A stretch of DNA of 64,000 nucleotides from Euzebya pacifica (GTDB lineage Bacteria > Actinomycetota > Nitriliruptoria > Euzebyales > Euzebyaceae), in contig NZ_CP031165.1 in NCBI RefSeq assembly GCF_003344865.1, positions 3,353,910-3,417,909 of the forward strand. Reading direction: 5' to 3'. Positions 11,322-28,919 of this stretch are shown here, piece by piece. A program made the translations under genes and the position numbers. The notes below the pieces were generated by a model. It did no database searches and was not told the DNA's origin. It saw only the letters and a program-made list of their open reading frames with translations. Position 1 is the first letter of the stretch; every line of letters starts with the position of its first letter.

Positions 11322-12720
11322 GGCTGAGTCCCGTGAGGTGGTGGAAGTAGAAGGTCACCGTTCGTGAAGTTGTTGGCAGGCTATGCCGCGGTGGTGGTGG
11401 CTGTCACCTCGATGGTGGTGTCGGCGGCGATGGTCTTCATGGATTCCTCGGAGAAGTAGCTGCGTTCGGCGACTTGCCATTCGTCGTGCTGCTCGAGCAG
11501 GACGGCGCCGATGAGGCGGATGATGGAGTTGTCGTCGGGGAAGATGCCCACCACGTTGGACCGGCGCTTGATCTCCTTGTTGACCCGTTCCAGCGGATTG
11601 GTTGACCACACCCTGCGCCAGTGGGTCCTGGGGAACGCCGCGAACGCGGTGAGATCGGGTTCGGCGTCAAGCAGCATCTGGGCCGCGGCGGGGAACCGGT
11701 CGGTGAGCATGTCGGCGACGGCGCGGAGCTGGGCGGTGACGGCGGCCTGGTCGGGCTGGGCGTAGATGGTGCGGATCATGGCGGTGACCATCTCGCCGTG
11801 GGCCTTGCCGACCCGGGCCAGGACGTTGCGGTTGAAGTGGACCCGACAACGCTGCCACGCCGCGCCCTGCAGGTGCCGGCGGATGGCGGCCTTCAACCCT
11901 TCGTGGGCGTCGGAGATGACCAGCTGCACACCACCGAGTCCGCGGGTCTTCAAGCTCCTGAGGAAGGCACCCCAGAACGCTTCGTCCTCGCTGTCGCCCA
12001 CGTCCAGCCCGAGGACTTCGCGGGTGCCGTCAGCGGCGACGCCGAACGCCACGACGATGGCGCGCGACACGACGTGGCGGCCGACGCGGCCCTTGACGTA
12101 GGTGGCGTCGCAGAACACGTAGGGGAAGTCGGTGTGGGCCAGGGTGCGGGCTCGGAACGCCTCGACGTGCCCGTCGATCTCCTTGCAGATCCGCGACACC
12201 GTCGATTTCGACACGCCCGAGTCCACGCCGAGTGCCTTGACGAGGTCGTCGACCTTGCGGGTGGAGGTGCCCTTGACGTAGGCGGTCATGATCACCGCCC
12301 ACAGGGCCTGGTCCACCCGGCGGCGCGGCTCCAGCAGCGACGGGTAGAAGTTGCCGGCCCGAACCTTGGGGATCGCCAGCTCCACATCACCAGCCGGTGT
12401 TGACAGGGTCCGGGGTGGCCGGTGGCCGTTGCGCTGCCCCGTCCGGTCATCGGTGCGCTCGTGCAGCGCCGCCCCGATTGAGGCGGTCAGCTCTTCCTCG
12501 ATCAGTGTCTGCAACGCGTTCTGGAGCAGATCACGAAACAGGCTGCGGTGCTCCTCGGTCAGCAGGTTCGTCGCAGCGTCGGTCAGCAGGTCATTATCAA
12601 TGTCGGCCATCGTGTGGCCCCTTTCGAGAGATCCGTGGAAAGACCTCACGAACAGTCACACGGTGGCCAACACCGTCTGGGGAACCAACTCCGACTTACA
12701 CCTGTTGCCGGGACTCAAAC
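11322..12720 (-). mobile_element. IS256-family insertion sequence, complete
   Basis: The element is 1,399 bases long with a single transposase gene on the leftward strand. Its ends are imperfect inverted repeats: GGCTGAGTCCCG at the left and, on the other strand, GTTTGAGTCCCG at the right, followed by further scattered matches. It is flanked by an exact 8-bp duplication, normal for the family. The element plus one duplication copy is 1,407 bases, a multiple of three. Transposase and both ends look intact, so it may still be mobile. It interrupts the membrane fusion protein gene. Confidence 0.93.
11381..12610 (-). CDS. IS256-family transposase
   Basis: A 409-residue DDE transposase of the Mutator/IS256 type. 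The three catalytic acidic residues fall in VFCDATYVKGR, VISDAHEGL and NPLERVNKEIKRR, each in its family context. The N-terminal region carries the usual DNA-binding helices. ATG at 12610 (MADIDNDLL) is preferred over the upstream frame start at 12649 because AAAGGGG lies just before it. The length is normal for the family and no frameshift is seen. It cuts and pastes or copies its own element through a circular intermediate, as known for the family. Confidence 0.95.
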   Translation of the reverse strand: MADIDNDLLTDAATNLLTEEHRSLFRDLLQNALQTLIEEELTASIGAALHERTDDRTGQRNGHRPPRTLSTPAGDVELAIPKVRAGNFYPSLLEPRRRVDQALWAVIMTAYVKGTSTRKVDDLVKALGVDSGVSKSTVSRICKEIDGHVEAFRARTLAHTDFPYVFCDATYVKGRVGRHVVSRAIVVAFGVAADGTREVLGLDVGDSEDEAFWGAFLRSLKTRGLGGVQLVISDAHEGLKAAIRRHLQGAAWQRCRVHFNRNVLARVGKAHGEMVTAMIRTIYAQPDQAAVTAQLRAVADMLTDRFPAAAQMLLDAEPDLTAFAAFPRTHWRRVWSTNPLERVNKEIKRRSNVVGIFPDDNSIIRLIGAVLLEQHDEWQVAERSYFSEESMKTIAADTTIEVTATTTAA

Positions 12721-16114: not shown

Positions 16115-17332
16115 GTGATTGACGTGGAGCAGTGGGCTGAGGTCCGCCGGTTGCATTTCGCTGAGGGGATGGCGATCAAGGCGATCGTGCGGGCGACGGG
16201 GTTGTCGCGCAACACGGTGCGGGCGGCGATCCGCTCGGCGTCGCCACCGAAGTACGAGCGGGAGGCGGCGGGGTCGGCGGTGGATGCGTTCGAGCCGCAG
16301 ATCCGCCAGTTGCTCAAGGCCACGCCGGACATGCCGGCCACGGTGATCGCCGAGCGGATCGGCTGGTCGCGGGGGATGACGGTGCTGCGCGACCGGGTGC
16401 GTGAGCTGCGTCCGGCCTACCTGCTGCCGGAGGGGTATGGCCGCACCGTCTATCGGGAGGGCGAGCTGGCCCAGTGGGACCTGTGGTTCCCCGAGGACCT
16501 GAAGGTGCCGGTCGGGTTCGGACAGACCGCGGTGCTGCCGGTGATCGTCGGGGTGCCCTGCTACTCGCGGTGGATCACCGCCCGGATGATCCCGTCCAAG
16601 GACAAACACGACGTGCTCGGCGGGCACCTGTGGTGCCTCCGCGACCTGGGCCGGGTGCCCCGCAAGGGGGTGTATGACGGCGAGCCCGCGATCAGCGTCC
16701 GGCGGGGCCGCAAGCTGGTCTACACCCAGGAGTACTTGGCGTTCCGAGGCACGTTGGGGATGGGCTCGATCGTGCTGGCCAAGGGCCACCCGGAGCGCAA
16801 GGGGGTGGTGGAGCGGGCCAACGGCTACCTGGAAACGAGCTTCATGCCCGGACGCAGCTTCGGCTCGATCGACGACTTCAACACCCAGCTGGGCCTGTGG
16901 CTTGAGGACCGGGCCAACGTCAGGGTCCACGCCGGGCTGCGCCAGCGGCCCTCCGAACGCATCGACGCCGACCTGGCCGCGATGCTGCCGCTGCCGCCGG
17001 TGCCGCCCGATGTCGATTGGACCCACACCGTCCGGTTGGGCGCCGACCACTGGGTGCGGGTGGACACCAACGACTACTCCGTCCACCCGGGCGCGATCGG
17101 CCGCAAGGTCACCATCCGCCGCACCGCCGATCAGGTCGTGGTGACCTGTGGCCGCGACGAGGTCGCCCGCCACGACCGGGTCCTCGCCAAGCATCAGACC
17201 ATCACCGACCCGGCCCACGACGCCGCCCGCAAGGCCCGCGCCCAGCTGCTCGAGCTGCCCGTCGCCGGCCCCGACACCGGTGTGGAGCAGCGGGACCTCG
17301 CCGACTACGACCGGCTGCTCGGGGTGGCCTGA
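16115..17332 (+). CDS. istA: IS21-family transposase IstA
   Basis: A 405-residue protein with an N-terminal helix-turn-helix (about residues 18-45, MAIKAIVRATGLSRNTVRAA) and a retroviral-type DDE integrase core. The core acidic residues are seen in LAQWDLWFP, VYDGEPAI and KGVVERANGYLE. The C-terminal part carries the beta domain HWVRVDTNDYSVHP typical of IstA. GTG at 16115 follows AGGAGGAAGG. The length fits the shorter actinobacterial IstA group. Its stop overlaps the istB start (TGATG), giving coupled translation. It performs cleavage and strand transfer with the helper ATPase IstB. Confidence 0.95.
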   Translation: MIDVEQWAEVRRLHFAEGMAIKAIVRATGLSRNTVRAAIRSASPPKYEREAAGSAVDAFEPQIRQLLKATPDMPATVIAERIGWSRGMTVLRDRVRELRPAYLLPEGYGRTVYREGELAQWDLWFPEDLKVPVGFGQTAVLPVIVGVPCYSRWITARMIPSKDKHDVLGGHLWCLRDLGRVPRKGVYDGEPAISVRRGRKLVYTQEYLAFRGTLGMGSIVLAKGHPERKGVVERANGYLETSFMPGRSFGSIDDFNTQLGLWLEDRANVRVHAGLRQRPSERIDADLAAMLPLPPVPPDVDWTHTVRLGADHWVRVDTNDYSVHPGAIGRKVTIRRTADQVVVTCGRDEVARHDRVLAKHQTITDPAHDAARKARAQLLELPVAGPDTGVEQRDLADYDRLLGVA

Positions 17333-18117
17333 TGGCAACCACGCCGGCGTCGGCCACCGACAGCCACCTGGCCTACCTGTGCCGGGCCATGAAGGCCCCG
17401 TCCCTCGCGGCGGCCGCCCCGCGGCTGGCCGACCGGGCCCGCGAGGAGGGCTGGACCCACGAGGCGTTCCTCGCCGCGTGCCTTGAGAAAGAAGTCGACG
17501 CCCGCGCCGCCCACGGCGGCCAGGCCCGCATCAAAGCCGCGAAGTTCCCGGCCCGCAAGACCCTGGAGGACTTCGACTTCGACCACCAGACCTCCGTCAA
17601 GCGCGAATTGATCGGCCATCTCGGCCAGCTCGACTTCGTCGACGCCCGCGCCAACGTGGTGTTCCTCGGCCCGCCCGGCACCGGCAAGACCCACCTCTCC
17701 ATCGCGCTGGGCATCCGCGCCTGCCTGGCCGGTCACCGCGTCGCCTTCGCCACCGCCGCCCAATGGGTCGACCGGCTCGGCGCCGCCCACGCCGCCGGCC
17801 GGCTCCAGGACGAACTCCGCGCCCTCGGCCGCGTCCCCGTCGTGGTCATCGACGAGGTCGGCTACATCCCGTTTGAGGCCGAGGCCGCCAACCTGTTCTT
17901 CCAACTCATCGCCGCCAGATACGAACGCGCCAGCGTGATCATGAGCTCCAACAAGCCATTCAGCCGGTGGGGCGAGGTCTTCGGCGACCCCGTCGTGGCC
18001 GCAGCCATGATCGACCGGCTCGTCCACCACGCCGACGTCGTCCCGCTCAAGGGCGACAGCTACCGCCTCAAGGACCGCGACCTCGGCCGCGTCCCCGCCG
18101 CCGACCCAGCACCATGA
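17332..18117 (+). CDS. istB: IS21-family helper ATPase IstB
   Basis: A 261-residue AAA+ protein related to DnaC. It has an N-terminal helical region, Walker A GPPGTGKTH (about residues 105-113), Walker B VVVIDEVGY and a sensor region ending IMSSNKPFSRW. IstB ATPases assemble on target DNA and stimulate IstA. ATG at 17332 overlaps the istA stop by one base. A single frameshift-free frame runs to a stop 61 bases before the element's right end. The C-terminal region DSYRLKDRDL is typical of the family. Confidence 0.95.
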   Translation: MATTPASATDSHLAYLCRAMKAPSLAAAAPRLADRAREEGWTHEAFLAACLEKEVDARAAHGGQARIKAAKFPARKTLEDFDFDHQTSVKRELIGHLGQLDFVDARANVVFLGPPGTGKTHLSIALGIRACLAGHRVAFATAAQWVDRLGAAHAAGRLQDELRALGRVPVVVIDEVGYIPFEAEAANLFFQLIAARYERASVIMSSNKPFSRWGEVFGDPVVAAAMIDRLVHHADVVPLKGDSYRLKDRDLGRVPAADPAP

Positions 18118-22534: not shown

Positions 22535-23113
22535 TCGCGGAGCGCGGCGAGCATCCCGAGGAGGACGTCCTTGTCCTCTCGGGTGAGCGTCGGATCCCGG
22601 TCGATGACCGCCTCCGCACTGGTGTCCCTGTGGAGGGCCACCTCCGCTGAGGTGAGCAGTCCGAGTGCCTGCAACGCAACGATCGGGTCGCGTTCGACGA
22701 CGTGGCACCACCGGACGAGGAGGTCGAGGTCACGGTCGAGCGGCGTCTTGCCGGTCTCGAGCCGCGAGACGGCTTGGTCGGTGAGGTCGAGCCGCCGACC
22801 CAGCGCCGCTCCAGACAGGTCCCGCTTCCACCGGGCCTTCTTCAGCCAGCGTCCGACCGTCTTGTGGACCTCGTGTTCCTCCAGCGACCCGGGAGGTGGC
22901 GGCCACTCGCGTGGCAGCGGGTTGCCGTCGCCCGGAGGTCCGTCGGGGACATCCGGGGCAGGTGGAGGGAGGACGGGATGGCACGGACAGCTCCTCGCCC
23001 TGGCCGGCCCGGGACATCCAGGTGGCGGAGATACCGATCCGTCGGGCCACGGCCGCCTGGGTCAGTCCGGTCCGTTCGCGTGCCCGCCGGATCAGCTCAC
23101 CCGTGCCGGTCAC
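22483..23113 (-). pseudogene. Two-domain XRE-type regulator gene with an apparent frameshift
   Basis: GTG at 23113 starts a clear helix-turn-helix (IRRARERTGLTQAAVARRIG). After about residue 40 that frame becomes arginine/proline nonsense. Another frame, open from near 23000 and without a start codon, takes over. It has a proline-rich linker, then a second helix-turn-helix (KKARWKRDLSGAALGRRLDL, then DQAVSRLETG) and an acidic helical end at 22483. A single-base change near 22990-23000 would join them into one regulator of about 210 residues with two XRE-like domains. Two overlapping genes are possible, but the second would lack a start. Confidence 0.5.
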
Positions 23114-23195: not shown

Positions 23196-24149
23196 TCAGA
23201 GCCCGTTTGCGGTGGCACCATGCTCTGCCTGCGGACGGGTGAACCCGTCGAAGACGAGCTGGTCGATGAGGCCGGACCGAGAGAACGCGCTGAACGACAG
23301 GTACTGGGCGCCCTTCGCGACAGCCTGTTCGTTCCAGTCAACGGAGATCCGCGACACGCCGTACTCGGCCTCCGCTGACGTGTACCCGTCGAACTCGAGC
23401 TGGCCGATCAGCCCGGACCGAGAGAACGCGCTGAACGACAGGTACTGCTCCGCGGACCCGACGGCCTGCTCGTTCCAGTCGGCCCCGACCGTGTCGACGG
23501 CATGGGTCGCATCCTCATAGCTGTAGCCGTCGAACTCGAGCTGACCGATCAGGCCGGATCTGGAGAAGGAGCTGAAGGAGAGGTACTGCTCGGCTGCCCG
23601 TCGCGCGTTGCTCTGGCTGGCGGACCCGGCAGGTGCCGCAGGCGCAGGCGCAGGGGGTGGTGGTGCAGGGGCAGGAGCCGGAGGGGGTGCCGGTGCGGGT
23701 GCAGGTGGCGCGGGTCGGGTCGGGTCGGCCGCCTCGTCCGTGGTGTCGTCCGGGGCTGCTGCGGCCGTGTCGTCGGGCCGGTCGGACTCGACGGCGACGT
23801 CGTCCGGTACCGGGCCCGCGAGTGCCCCGATGATGCCGATGACCACGAACAGGCCGAACACGGACACGGGGATCAGGAACCGCTTCTTCTGATACCACGG
23901 ACGGCGGCCGCGTGGCGGTGGGGGCTGCATCGGACCGCCTGGCCAGCCGGGGCCTAGTGCGGGCCCCTGTGGTCCGGGCGGCCACTGCTGCCCGGCGGTG
24001 GGTGGTCCGGCCGGCCACTGGGGACCGGGCGGGGGCCCGTGCTGCTGGCCGGTGGGCGGTCCCGGAGGCCACTGGCCGACAGGGCCCGAAGGGGGCTGCT
24101 GCGGACGGGGAGTCGGGCCGGGTCCGGTCGGCTGGTCTGGTGGCTGCAT
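23196..24149 (-). CDS. Membrane protein with three Ltp-type surface repeats
   Basis: A 317-residue protein. Residues 1-80 are Pro/Gly/Gln-rich and probably cytoplasmic. A membrane segment lies at about 88-112, followed by an acidic then Pro/Ala-rich spacer (about 115-180). Three tandem repeats of about 47 residues follow, each with YLSFSxFSRSGLIxQLxFDG and two ending DWNEQAV. These match the Ltp repeat (host cell surface-exposed lipoprotein domain). Ltp proteins of some phages block DNA entry of other phages. Here the repeats hang on a membrane anchor with no lipobox, and the last repeat is short. ATG at 24149 follows AGGAG. The role here is open. Confidence 0.85.
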   Translation of the reverse strand: MQPPDQPTGPGPTPRPQQPPSGPVGQWPPGPPTGQQHGPPPGPQWPAGPPTAGQQWPPGPQGPALGPGWPGGPMQPPPPRGRRPWYQKKRFLIPVSVFGLFVVIGIIGALAGPVPDDVAVESDRPDDTAAAAPDDTTDEAADPTRPAPPAPAPAPPPAPAPAPPPPAPAPAAPAGSASQSNARRAAEQYLSFSSFSRSGLIGQLEFDGYSYEDATHAVDTVGADWNEQAVGSAEQYLSFSAFSRSGLIGQLEFDGYTSAEAEYGVSRISVDWNEQAVAKGAQYLSFSAFSRSGLIDQLVFDGFTRPQAEHGATANGL

Positions 24150-24281: not shown

Positions 24282-24887
24282 TCAGGTGCCGTCCGTCGTC
24301 CAGCAGCCGCCGTGGTGCCCTGCGCCGGCGGTACGGGCCTCCGCGAACGCGACGTCGAGCTCGGCGGCGTAGCCGGGGGCCTCGTGCCGGAAGTCGTCCA
24401 GGTACCGGTCGTCGGCCATGCCGTTGCGGGCGAGGACGACCCCGAGGTCCCGGCCGTCGGGCAGGACGACCCGGGCGACGGTCCGGCCGTGGGTGTCGGT
24501 GGAGTACGGCGCGACGGTGAACCCGTCGACGAGGTGCGCGGCGGTGTACGCCGTCGACTCCGACCCGCCGCACTCGCCCACCTCCGGGGTGTTGACGAGC
24601 CCGACCCGGTACTCGACCCCGTCGGAGGCAACCCAACTGTCCCCGTCACGCTGGTCGACGACCGTCAGCAACACCAGCCTGACACTGACCGCCCCATCGG
24701 CCGCCGCCGGAGTGACGGCCGGGGCGAGCGTCCCGGGGCCGGCCAGCCCATAGGCGGTGATGGACCCGGCCAACAGCAGTGCGGCCGTCAGCCGCAGCAG
24801 GACGACACCGGGGCGGCGTGACAGGTCGGCGGGCGGCCGTCCGGACGGCACGGGCACGTGGGTCGGTGATGTAGATGTCTGGGGCAT
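24282..24887 (-). CDS. Exported thermonuclease-like (SNase) domain protein
   Basis: A protein of about 201 residues with an N-terminal membrane or signal segment (VLLRLTAALLLAGSITAYGLA, about residues 28-48). A staphylococcal-nuclease-like domain follows. Family landmarks are visible: VDQRDGDSW for the first acidic site, YRVGLVNTPE in place of the usual R-x-x-G-I-D-x-P-E, and THGRTVARV with the second catalytic Arg. Asp in the DAPE position is Asn here, so calcium binding or activity may be changed. The start is uncertain (24887 or GTG at 24956). It lies upstream of the Ltp-repeat gene on the same strand, and the two could be co-transcribed. Expected activity is extracellular DNA/RNA cleavage. 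Confidence 0.7.
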   Translation of the reverse strand: MPQTSTSPTHVPVPSGRPPADLSRRPGVVLLRLTAALLLAGSITAYGLAGPGTLAPAVTPAAADGAVSVRLVLLTVVDQRDGDSWVASDGVEYRVGLVNTPEVGECGGSESTAYTAAHLVDGFTVAPYSTDTHGRTVARVVLPDGRDLGVVLARNGMADDRYLDDFRHEAPGYAAELDVAFAEARTAGAGHHGGCWTTDGT

Positions 24888-25039
24888 GGCGGAGTCCGGG
24901 TCCGTGTCGGCGGGAACGGGTCCCCTGGACCGTTGCCCGGCGGTCCGGTCCGACACGACCGGGTTCCCTGCGGATCGGCCGCCCTGACCGGTACCGGCCC
25001 CGCAGCACCCTGCGGACCCGAACCGACCACGGAGACGCC

Positions 25040-25593: not shown

Positions 25594-25751
25594 GGGTACA
25601 GCGTGTCATCGACCCAGCTGCGCCGCGCACCGGGGGTTGGGTTCATGTCGGCATCGTCCTGCGTACCCGCCCGGTGGGCAACCCGCTGCGGCCGCCATCG
25701 CGGCTACGCTCTCCCCTCGCACGACGCATGTCCCCCCGAGAAAGCCGAGCA

Positions 25752-28700
25752 GTGTTCTCCCCCGTCGATCAGCAGCCCGATTTCCCGGGCATGGAAACTG
25801 CCGTCCTGCAGCGCTGGAAGGACCACCAGACCTTCCAGGCGTCCCTCGAGGCACGCGCCGACGGGCCGCTGTTCTCCTTCAACGAGGGGCCACCGACCGC
25901 CAACGGCAGGCCAGGCGTGCACCACGTCGAGGCGCGGGTCTTCAAGGACATCTTCCCCCGCTACCGCACGATGAAGGGCTACCGGGTGCCCCGCAAGGCC
26001 GGCTGGGACTGCCACGGCATCCCGGTGGAGCTGGAGATCGAGAAGAAGCTCGGCTTCACCCACAAGCAGGAGATCGAGGACTACGGCGTCGAGGCGTTCA
26101 ACGCGCTGTGCCGCGAGTCGGTGGAGACCTACGTCGACGAGTGGACCCGCCTGACGGAGCGCATCGCGTTCTGGGTCGACACCGACGACGCCTACTGGAC
26201 GATGGACACCTCCTACGTGGAGAGCGTCTGGTGGAGCCTCAAGCAGCTGTGGGACGCCGGGCTGCTCTACGAGGGCCACAAGGTCCTGCCGTACTGCGGG
26301 CGCTGCGGGACCTCGCTCTCGGACCACGAGGTCGCCCAGGGCTACGACCAGGCCGAGGACCCGTCGGTGTACGTCCGTTTCCCCCTCACCGACGGAGCCC
26401 TGGCCGAGGCGGGGGCGTCGCTGGCCGTGTGGACGACGACACCGTGGACGCTGATCTCCAACACGCTGGTGGCCGTCGGCGAGGACGTCGCCTACGTGCT
26501 GGCGCAGGGCGACGGTGATGCCTACCCCGTGGTCATCGCCCGTGACCTGGTCGAGGCGGTCCTGGGCGAGGGCGCCACGATCCACCGCGATGTCGCCGTG
26601 CAGGAGCTGATCGGCCAGCCCTACCGTGCCCCCTTCGACTACGTCGTCCCCGAGGGCCGGGCCCACTACGTCACCACCGCCGACTTCGTCACCACCAGCG
26701 ACGGCACCGGGCTCGTGCACATGGCGCCCGCGTTCGGCGCTGACGACTACGCCATCGGCCAGCGCGAGGGCGTCGAGGTCGTCAACCCCGTCGACCTCGA
26801 GGGACGGTTCACCGAACGGGTCACGCCATGGGCGGGCCTGTTCGTCAAGGACGCCGACGCGGGGATCATCGAGGCGCTCCGCGAGGCCGGCCTGCTGATC
26901 AGGGCCGAGACCTACACCCACACCTATCCCTTCTGCTGGCGGTGCAAGAACCCGCTGCTGTACTACGCCAAGCCGTCCTGGTACGTCGCCACGTCGCAGT
27001 ACAAGGACAAGCTGCTGGCCGTCAACGCCGAGGTCGACTGGCATCCCGAGCACATCCGCGACGGCCGCTACGGCGACTGGTTGTCCAACAACATCGACTG
27101 GGCGCTGTCACGGTCCCGCTACTGGGGTACCCCGCTGCCGGTGTGGCGCTGCGACGGCTGTGAGGACACCATCTGCGTCGGCTCCCGAGCCGAGCTCGGC
27201 GATCTCGCCGGTTCGGACCTGTCGGCGCTGGACCCCCACCGGCCCTACATCGACGACATCACCTTCGAGTGCCGGCGCGACACCGGCGACGGCCCCTGCG
27301 GCGGCACGATGACCCGCGTGCCCGACGTGATCGACGCCTGGTACGACTCCGGTGCGATGCCGTTCGCCCAGTTCGGCTATCCCTACGCCGAGGGGTCGGA
27401 GCAGACGTTCAGCGAACGCTTCCCGGCCGACTACATCTGCGAGGCCATCGACCAGACCCGCGGCTGGTTCTACTCGCTGATGGCCGAGTCCACGCTGCTG
27501 TTCGAGCAGAACAGCTACCGGACCGTCCTGTGCCTCGGGCACATCGTCGACGCCGACGGCAAGAAGATGTCGAAGTCCCTGGGCAACATCATCTCGCCGT
27601 GGGAGATCGTCGACCGGCACGGCGCCGACCCGCTCCGCTGGCTGCTGCTGACCGATGGATCCCCGTGGATCAACCGTCGGGTCGGGCACGGACCCGTCGA
27701 GGACGTCGTCCGTCGGTTCTTCCTGACGCTGTGGAACAGCTACTACTTCTTCGTCACCTACGCCCGGATCGACGGGTGGACCCCCGACGCACGGCCCGCC
27801 CCGCCGGTTGCCGAACGGCCGGTCATGGACCGCTGGATCCTGTCCGAGCTCGCCCAGCTGATCACGACCGTGGACGAGGGGCTGGAGGCGTTCGACGCCA
27901 CCACCGCCGGTCGTGCGCTGGAGGACTTCGTCGACGGCCTGTCCAACTGGTACATCCGTCGGACCCGGTCGCGGTTCTGGGCAGCGGGCACGTCGGCGGA
28001 CAAGGACGCGGCCTTCGCCACCCTGCACGAGTGCCTCGTGACGCTGTCGGCGCTGCTGGCCCCCTTCACCCCCTTCGTCGCCGAGTCGCTGTACGACAAC
28101 CTGGTGTGCACCGTCGACGCCGACGCGCCGGACAGCGTCCACCTGCTGGACTTCCCCGTGCCCGACACGACAGCCGACGACGCCGACCTCCGACGCGCCA
28201 TGGCTGCGGCCCGGCAGGTCGTCACCCTCGGGCTGCGGGCCCGCAACGAGGCCCAGATCGGGGTGCGTCAGCCCCTCCCCCGGGCGCTGGTCACCCTGCC
28301 CGACACCGATGGGTGGGACCGTGTTGCCGGTGTGGTCGCCGACGAGCTCAACCTCAAGGCGATCGAGCTGAGCGAGGGCGGCGACACCGTCAGCTACCAG
28401 CTCAAGGCCAGCTTCCGCGACCTCGGCCGCGTGTTCGGCAAGCAGACCCCCGACGTCGCCGCCGCCATCACCTCCGCCGATCCCGATCCGGTCGTCGCGG
28501 CAGTGCGCGCCGGGCAGTCCGTCGACCTGATGCTGGCCGACGGCACACCGGTCACCGTCGACCCGTCGATGATCCAGGTCGTGGAGGAGTCCCGGGAGGG
28601 CTGGACGGTGGCCACCGAGGGCGGCGTGTCGGTGGCGCTGGACCTGACCGTCGACGACGTCCTGCGTCGTGAGGGCCTGGCCCGCGAGCTGATCCGGACC

Positions 28701-28919
28701 ATCAACGACCAGCGAAAGCAGCTGGACCTCCAGCTGTCGGACCGGATCCGGCTCGAGCTGGCCATCGACGGTCAGCTCGAGCAGGCGGTGGCCGACCACC
28801 GCGAGACCATCTGCCGCGAGACCCTGGCAACCGACATCACCGACGGCGCCGCCTCCGGCGGGGCGTTCGTCGAGGTCGGCGGACACGCCGCCCGCATTCG
28901 TATCGAGGTCAACCGATGA
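25752..28919 (+). CDS. ileS: Isoleucyl-tRNA synthetase
   Basis: A class I aminoacyl-tRNA synthetase of about 1,055 residues that charges tRNA-Ile. The HIGH-type motif region is GPPTANGRPGVHH at about residues 47-59. The CP1 editing domain contains WTTTPWTL near 225. The tryptophan-flanked core with CxxC knuckles (YCGRCG, FCWRCK) and KMSKSLGN near residue 605 follow. The length fits the long, archaeal/eukaryotic-like IleRS type, which is often linked with mupirocin tolerance. I prefer GTG 25752 (FSPVDQQPDFP) over ATG 25728 because it fits the family N-terminus. I found no T-box leader in the 158 bases before it. The stop overlaps the next gene (ATGA). Confidence 0.97.
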   Translation: MFSPVDQQPDFPGMETAVLQRWKDHQTFQASLEARADGPLFSFNEGPPTANGRPGVHHVEARVFKDIFPRYRTMKGYRVPRKAGWDCHGIPVELEIEKKLGFTHKQEIEDYGVEAFNALCRESVETYVDEWTRLTERIAFWVDTDDAYWTMDTSYVESVWWSLKQLWDAGLLYEGHKVLPYCGRCGTSLSDHEVAQGYDQAEDPSVYVRFPLTDGALAEAGASLAVWTTTPWTLISNTLVAVGEDVAYVLAQGDGDAYPVVIARDLVEAVLGEGATIHRDVAVQELIGQPYRAPFDYVVPEGRAHYVTTADFVTTSDGTGLVHMAPAFGADDYAIGQREGVEVVNPVDLEGRFTERVTPWAGLFVKDADAGIIEALREAGLLIRAETYTHTYPFCWRCKNPLLYYAKPSWYVATSQYKDKLLAVNAEVDWHPEHIRDGRYGDWLSNNIDWALSRSRYWGTPLPVWRCDGCEDTICVGSRAELGDLAGSDLSALDPHRPYIDDITFECRRDTGDGPCGGTMTRVPDVIDAWYDSGAMPFAQFGYPYAEGSEQTFSERFPADYICEAIDQTRGWFYSLMAESTLLFEQNSYRTVLCLGHIVDADGKKMSKSLGNIISPWEIVDRHGADPLRWLLLTDGSPWINRRVGHGPVEDVVRRFFLTLWNSYYFFVTYARIDGWTPDARPAPPVAERPVMDRWILSELAQLITTVDEGLEAFDATTAGRALEDFVDGLSNWYIRRTRSRFWAAGTSADKDAAFATLHECLVTLSALLAPFTPFVAESLYDNLVCTVDADAPDSVHLLDFPVPDTTADDADLRRAMAAARQVVTLGLRARNEAQIGVRQPLPRALVTLPDTDGWDRVAGVVADELNLKAIELSEGGDTVSYQLKASFRDLGRVFGKQTPDVAAAITSADPDPVVAAVRAGQSVDLMLADGTPVTVDPSMIQVVEESREGWTVATEGGVSVALDLTVDDVLRREGLARELIRTINDQRKQLDLQLSDRIRLELAIDGQLEQAVADHRETICRETLATDITDGAASGGAFVEVGGHAARIRIEVNR

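Follow-up and report, generated by a model that had tools for sequence, protein, structure and literature searches.

The Ltp-repeat gene and its surroundings

The window, i.e., the whole stretch of 64,000 nucleotides of Euzebya pacifica DNA that was analysed, carries on its minus strand an open reading frame for a protein of 317 residues, with an AGGAG motif 5' of the ATG. The following features of this protein and of its neighbourhood were assigned, each with the evidence on which it is based.

11381-12649: Mutator-family transposase, left of the Ltp gene
16115-18117: IS21 istA and istB genes, left of the Ltp gene
22730..23113, minus strand: HTH_31 (XRE-type) regulator-like ORF, downstream of the Ltp gene (PF13560, E 1.5e-8)
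23196..24149, minus strand: Ltp-repeat protein of 317 aa with a membrane anchor and without cysteine (PF07553, PHROG, AlphaFold and 4eqq match)
23196..23618, minus strand: three Ltp repeats of three helices each (PF07553, nucleotide self-repeat, charge, AlphaFold)
23619..23819, minus strand: linker, acidic and then Pro/Ala-rich, residues ~111-177 (charge and model)
23820..23876, minus strand: single transmembrane helix, residues ~92-110 (KD 2.63 and AlphaFold helix)
23877..24149, minus strand: Pro/Gln/Gly-rich tail, residues 1-91, ending in RGRRPWYQKKR, probably on the cytoplasmic side (composition)
24282..24956, minus strand: staphylococcal-nuclease-like ORF, likely start ATG 24887 (201 aa; PF00565)

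Membership of the window protein in the known Ltp family is firm. The Pfam family PF07553 (Lipoprotein_Ltp) matched three stretches of it with an E value of 9.7e-39 and 131.7 bits (cut-off 23.2), two PHROG families of superinfection exclusion matched at E 2.2e-45 and 2.1e-43, and phmmer found the solved Ltp structure 4eqq at E 2e-9. The endolysin family phrog_7854 matched at E 0.002. Together with the fold comparison described below, the Ltp and superinfection-exclusion matches confirm at the sequence, profile and fold level what an earlier note on this DNA had proposed, namely that the repeats are Ltp domains.

In the DNA, a unit of 122 nt occurs three times with spacings of 141 and 141 nt, and self-identity of the repeat part at a lag of 141 amounted to 0.693 versus a maximum of 0.386 among 500 codon shuffles. 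The three copies had been called near-identical, which holds for the 20-residue core motif and fails for whole repeats, whose identities are 32/47, 21/40 and 23/40. Over 47 codons the first two copies differ by 12 silent and 15 changed codons, and because silent and changed codons both separate the copies, the repeats are not a fresh duplication. For each of the three window repeats, the best non-self blastp partner is found in another protein.

Hydropathy analysis gave one membrane segment (KD 2.63 at residue 92), and P, Q and G together make up 69% of the 91 residues N-terminal to the helix. As none of the 317 residues is a cysteine, the window protein cannot be a lipoprotein; the lipobox cysteine and lipid anchor of Ltp-type exclusion lipoproteins are absent and a helix is present instead. 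The description of a Pro/Gln tail on a single membrane segment without a lipobox was therefore correct. We favour an orientation in which the tail lies inside and the repeats outside the membrane, as suggested by the basic RGRRPWYQKKR sequence before the helix.

From position 25695 rightwards, the window is colinear with the congener G002 (ileS, a CWB2-repeat protein and DivIVA, 86-89% identity), and synteny breaks at this position. Window ORFs tested at 14-25 kb were without a match both in the 1.7 kb of G002 sequence available ahead of ileS and in ~16 kb upstream of this gene in the congener G001. This marks the Ltp stretch as a variable region. The ileS gene itself (window 25758-28919) is 95% identical in G002 and 77% in G001; the congener G003 holds only a 43%-identical paralogue, and a similar one is also found in G001 and G002. 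In Pfam, the neighbouring ORFs, many of which matched nothing, gave no phage families and only IS transposases, PHROGs having been applied to three proteins. Neither Rfam at its gathering threshold nor a tRNA scan gave any match in the window.

The synteny break and the Mutator-family and IS21 transposases would fit an acquired gene that sits in a variable, transposon-bearing stretch as a silent passenger without present function. No sigma-70-like promoter was found, which points the same way and is of little weight in actinobacteria. A passenger of this kind is nonetheless quite unlikely in our judgement: the frame is intact, codon-position GC of the repeats (0.61, 0.47 and 0.87) is coding-like, and the repeats score well above the family cut-off.

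Predicted fold of the repeats and likeness to RecX

AlphaFold predicted nine helices in the three repeats with a pLDDT of 97-98 and a membrane helix at residues 93-110. The tail up to residue 90 is without predicted structure (pLDDT 50-57), and residues 111-176 form neither helix nor strand. The tandem three-helix (helix-turn-helix) Ltp fold is present in the predicted model of the window repeats, which superposed on 4eqq, i.e., Ltp of the Streptococcus thermophilus phage TP-J34, with an rmsd of 1.1 A over 96 residues and a Z score of 16.7 (Foldseek and VIA-align). Like Ltp-type exclusion proteins, the window protein has acidic repeats carried by a low-complexity spacer: the repeat region has a net charge of -11 and a pI of 4.3, and the spacer is unstructured in the model. 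Acidic repeats were also found in 74 of the 77 relatives collected, and the linker of the window protein (residues 113-183) carries a net charge of -8. The window protein and TP-J34 Ltp thus have in common the repeat family, the fold, the low-complexity spacer and a place outside the membrane, the latter being the probable side for the window protein. They differ in that TP-J34 Ltp is lipid-anchored, comprises 142 aa and is encoded beside an integrase in a phage, whereas the window protein has a helix with a Pro/Gln tail and three repeats and is chromosomal, with no phage family found nearby.

RecX is a cytoplasmic regulator of RecA. Apart from Ltp, RecX entries alone gave high fold matches, with Z scores of 10.2-13.6 over 134-142 residues in Foldseek/VIA-align, for which VIA-align itself cautions that in helical repeats a Z below ~13 may reflect mere arrangement; the next match reached a Z of 4.1. 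The RecX matches span all three window repeats (23196-23618). When three-repeat Ltp regions (21 of 22 used) were compared as a profile with 18 RecX ORFs, hhalign yielded no significant match (E 0.097 local, 0.43 global), and homology to RecX by sequence was accordingly not supported. The Pfam family RecX_HTH1 matched 4 of the 77 relatives at E <= 0.001 and the window protein at E 0.025, under the family cut-off. Since the Z scores lie near the arrangement range and the profile comparison was without sequence kinship, we regard RecX as a likeness of fold only: both proteins consist of tandem three-helix repeats, whereas RecX resides in the cytoplasm and shares no sequence homology by profile comparison. 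A rather unlikely extension of this likeness would be that Ltp repeats are an extracellular RecX scaffold. The three window repeats extend over the entire RecX fold, and they might hold the tape-measure protein, a helical filament, during its passage through the membrane in a way similar to the grip of RecX on RecA filaments; with three repeats, the helix-borne clamp would then be longer than with two. Passages of a paper touching on RecX, Ltp and superinfection exclusion handle RecX and Ltp as separate genes.

Anchors and distribution of the Ltp family

The earlier note had considered a membrane segment without a lipobox unusual for an Ltp protein. Among 78 family proteins including that of the window, a crude rule assigned a tailed helix to 34, a short N-terminal segment to 22 and a lipobox to 15, leaving 3 without a called helix and 4 without a class, so that this expectation was overturned. 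For this count, 11 duplicate or fragment rows (L002, L003, L005, L006, L052, L078, L080, L086-L089) had been removed first and starts were reset by hand in 10 rows; by eye, L015, L020, L033 and L036 also resemble lipobox proteins, and L031, L069 and L073 (TM2-like) as well as L016, L017, L021 and L035 (second hydrophobic stretch) possibly span the membrane more than once. A passage of PMC5137146 (2016), which deals with CbpL, ascribes a lipid-anchoring cysteine to all reported Ltp members, a statement that is not borne out by these anchor counts.

The Pro/Gln-rich tail followed by a helix and Ltp repeats was also found in proteins of Williamsia limnetica (L012), Dietzia (L029) and the Rhodococcus opacus plasmid pLPS8 (L103), as well as in the Gordonia phage Hanem. 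L012 and L029 differ from the window protein in that two repeats were called in each, and the neighbours of all three loci differ as well. Two of the 13 phage regions, Hanem gp90 and RedWattleHog gp139, both from Gordonia phages and annotated as 'lipoprotein', encode a Pro-containing tail, a basic stretch (KRKWPW) and a single helix in place of the lipobox, followed by a linker and Ltp repeats. The build that had seemed odd is therefore phage-borne too. Compared with the window protein, the two phage proteins are shorter (184 and 176 aa), phage-borne and placed elsewhere in the repeat tree, where one protein of Williamsia and two of Rhodococcus plasmids join them in a clade (support 98/85).

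The motif PWYxKKRFxIP with the helix (window 23820-23910) recurs in L062, L091-L093, L095 and L096, all from the same order or class and with unrelated outer parts. Judged by sequence, the window anchor looks like an exchangeable module.

A genome scan yielded 56 Ltp loci in several phyla, one of which, L062, matches the anchor only and is without Ltp. Within the Actinomycetota, 26 of 396 genomes contain the family, and in a set made up of the window genome plus 40 relatives it was detected in 3 of 41, the window's own included; none of the three congeners has it. We conclude that the window Ltp gene is accessory and probably horizontally acquired. A search of 50,697 phage records found Ltp relatives at E <= 1e-5 in 137, of which 100 belong to Gordonia phages, some of these being entered twice, and 24 of 72,556 plasmids had an Ltp match.

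A repeat tree was calculated from 94 rows and only 92 columns, with unsettled bootstrap; the thirteenth phage region (L124), which yielded no ORF, is absent from it. On this tree the anchor type switches between tailed helix and lipobox at least 14 times, counted over 64 rows labelled partly by eye, and phage and non-phage rows switch at least 9 times. A topology test rejected the 12 phage rows as one clade (p-AU 1.5e-5), and the gene has therefore crossed between phages and cells. The window groups with two Bacillota rows and not with phages (support 97/90, from the same 92 columns).

As recurrent partners, the 77 relatives carry DUF2510 domains (8), zinc ribbons (up to 8), PASTA (5) and TM2 (3), whereas weak Pfam matches (Hexose_dehydrat 3, O-antigen_lig 3, RuvA_C 2, New_glue 2 and singles, e.g., Peptidase_M60) were taken as chance. 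These partners, and the presence of relatives in several phyla, speak for the main rival to an anti-phage function, in which the protein would be a general envelope protein whose repeats hold a cell-wall or surface partner, the module having been borrowed by phages. According to passages of PMC5137146, CbpL of Streptococcus pneumoniae sets a precedent, since this cell-surface protein carries an Ltp domain without a lipobox, is no lipoprotein and has been linked to host interaction. CbpL differs from the window protein by its choline-binding wall anchor, its Excalibur domain and the role in host interaction reported there. Such an envelope function is possible, if on balance somewhat doubtful, given that the Ltp repeats are the part common to all 77 relatives, that many phages carry them as short separate genes and that their patchy presence contrasts with a core envelope role.

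Neighbouring genes and possible function

A thermonuclease-like gene had been noted just upstream on the same strand. It is indeed there: the nuclease ORF matched PF00565 at E 2.2e-5 and 25.3 bits versus a cut-off of 21, a weak match that nonetheless passes, and its end is separated by 132 bp from the Ltp start codon. The protein has an N-terminal hydrophobic stretch (KD 1.86 at residue 27). Conservation of this pairing was assessed in 45 genomes, consisting of 23 of the 26 Ltp genomes of the phylum (the window genome, G000, included; G032, G143 and G195 left out) and 22 genomes with named loci. The former were scored by contig and position and the latter by nuclease position relative to Ltp contig range or length. 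A PF00565 match occurs in 22 of the 45, and only in the window genome does it lie beside Ltp. A single-sequence tblastn of the loci agreed, the window's own loci being the only ones with the two genes side by side.

If the two genes formed a surface barrier, Ltp would block or hold incoming DNA and the thermonuclease would cut it, an arrangement to which the shared strand, the short gap and one hydrophobic stretch in each protein lend some appeal. We hold it highly improbable, because the genes are adjacent in none of the 44 other Ltp genomes, 21 of which have the nuclease elsewhere, and all three congeners, which lack Ltp, contain related nucleases with 49-59% identity in the part that matched. 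Neither a DNA-uptake role nor a nuclease partnership gained support from these sequence comparisons.

PADLOC reported nothing for the window Ltp or the nuclease. Two of 10 window proteins were matched, both 15-21 kb further left: one with a methyltransferase domain, by mad2, and one with a TIM barrel, by PDC-M70B. A scan that covered 15 of the 56 loci with 112 surrounding ORFs matched 20 PADLOC models at E <= 1e-10, a number from which no enrichment is claimed, as the scan was without control regions. The matches assigned to a locus were several helicase models on one protein and mad2, both at L010, and, in Nesterenkonia sedimenti (L030:5917-9506), ZacA (E 1.5e-122) and ZacB (E 4.4e-146), whose genes follow Ltp at a distance of 79 bp and share its strand. 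The other models matched included TIR-TM, AriA, PycC and mad3. On pLPS8, a putative S-4TM effector and a CBASS cyclase lie 1.7 kb and 2.6 kb from Ltp on the opposite strand. The link to defence is thin and uncontrolled, and serves as a lead only.

An integrase or transposase gene is located within ~4.5 kb of Ltp in three of five plasmid regions; in pLPS8 (L103:4614-8742) the integrase lies 3.8 kb from Ltp, on the side opposite the S-4TM effector and cyclase. Two other Rhodococcus plasmids (L131:5266-8820 and L133:5266-8824) share an Ltp gene at 94% identity followed by a same-strand pair of hypothetical genes at 98-99%, so that Ltp and the two hypothetical proteins possibly represent a conserved unit. 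Upstream lies a DEAD/DEAH helicase gene in one plasmid and one for a DUF499 protein in the other.

We propose that the window gene was acquired horizontally by the chromosome and that its product, tethered to the membrane, would block the injection of phage DNA by catching the tail tape-measure protein, a proposal that we consider evenly poised between right and wrong. Against it weigh the lack of phage families among the Pfam matches nearby, the empty PADLOC result for Ltp, the host-interaction role reported for CbpL and the placement of the window repeats beside Bacillota rows in the tree. If expressed, the protein would sit in the cytoplasmic membrane with its Pro/Gln tail inside, and the flexible linker would hold the three acidic repeats outside. 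An incoming siphophage would push its tape-measure protein through the envelope, where the repeats may bind it; binding would stall DNA ejection and spare the cell, as with phage Ltp proteins. Passages of PMC3952083 and PMC11480721 describe Ltp as tethered on the outer side of the membrane, with the repeats bringing about exclusion and ejection stalling on contact with the tape-measure protein; in the latter paper, negative Ltp residues meet positively charged tape-measure peptides. PMC3952083 further describes exclusion proteins tethered by a lipid or an N-terminal membrane helix, and activity of Ltp on more phages once its lipid anchor is missing, so that anchoring by a helix would agree with the function. 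The similar tail-and-helix forms in Gordonia phages and plasmids make an anti-phage role plausible by analogy.

Helix-anchored Ltp proteins go by the database name 'lipoprotein', yet they are common and shared by bacteria, plasmids and phages. If these proteins do not block phage injection, the window gene would be an ordinary one. If they do, actinobacterial chromosomes would encode a kind of exclusion that has been described too little, and on such proteins the importance of the lipid anchor could be tested.
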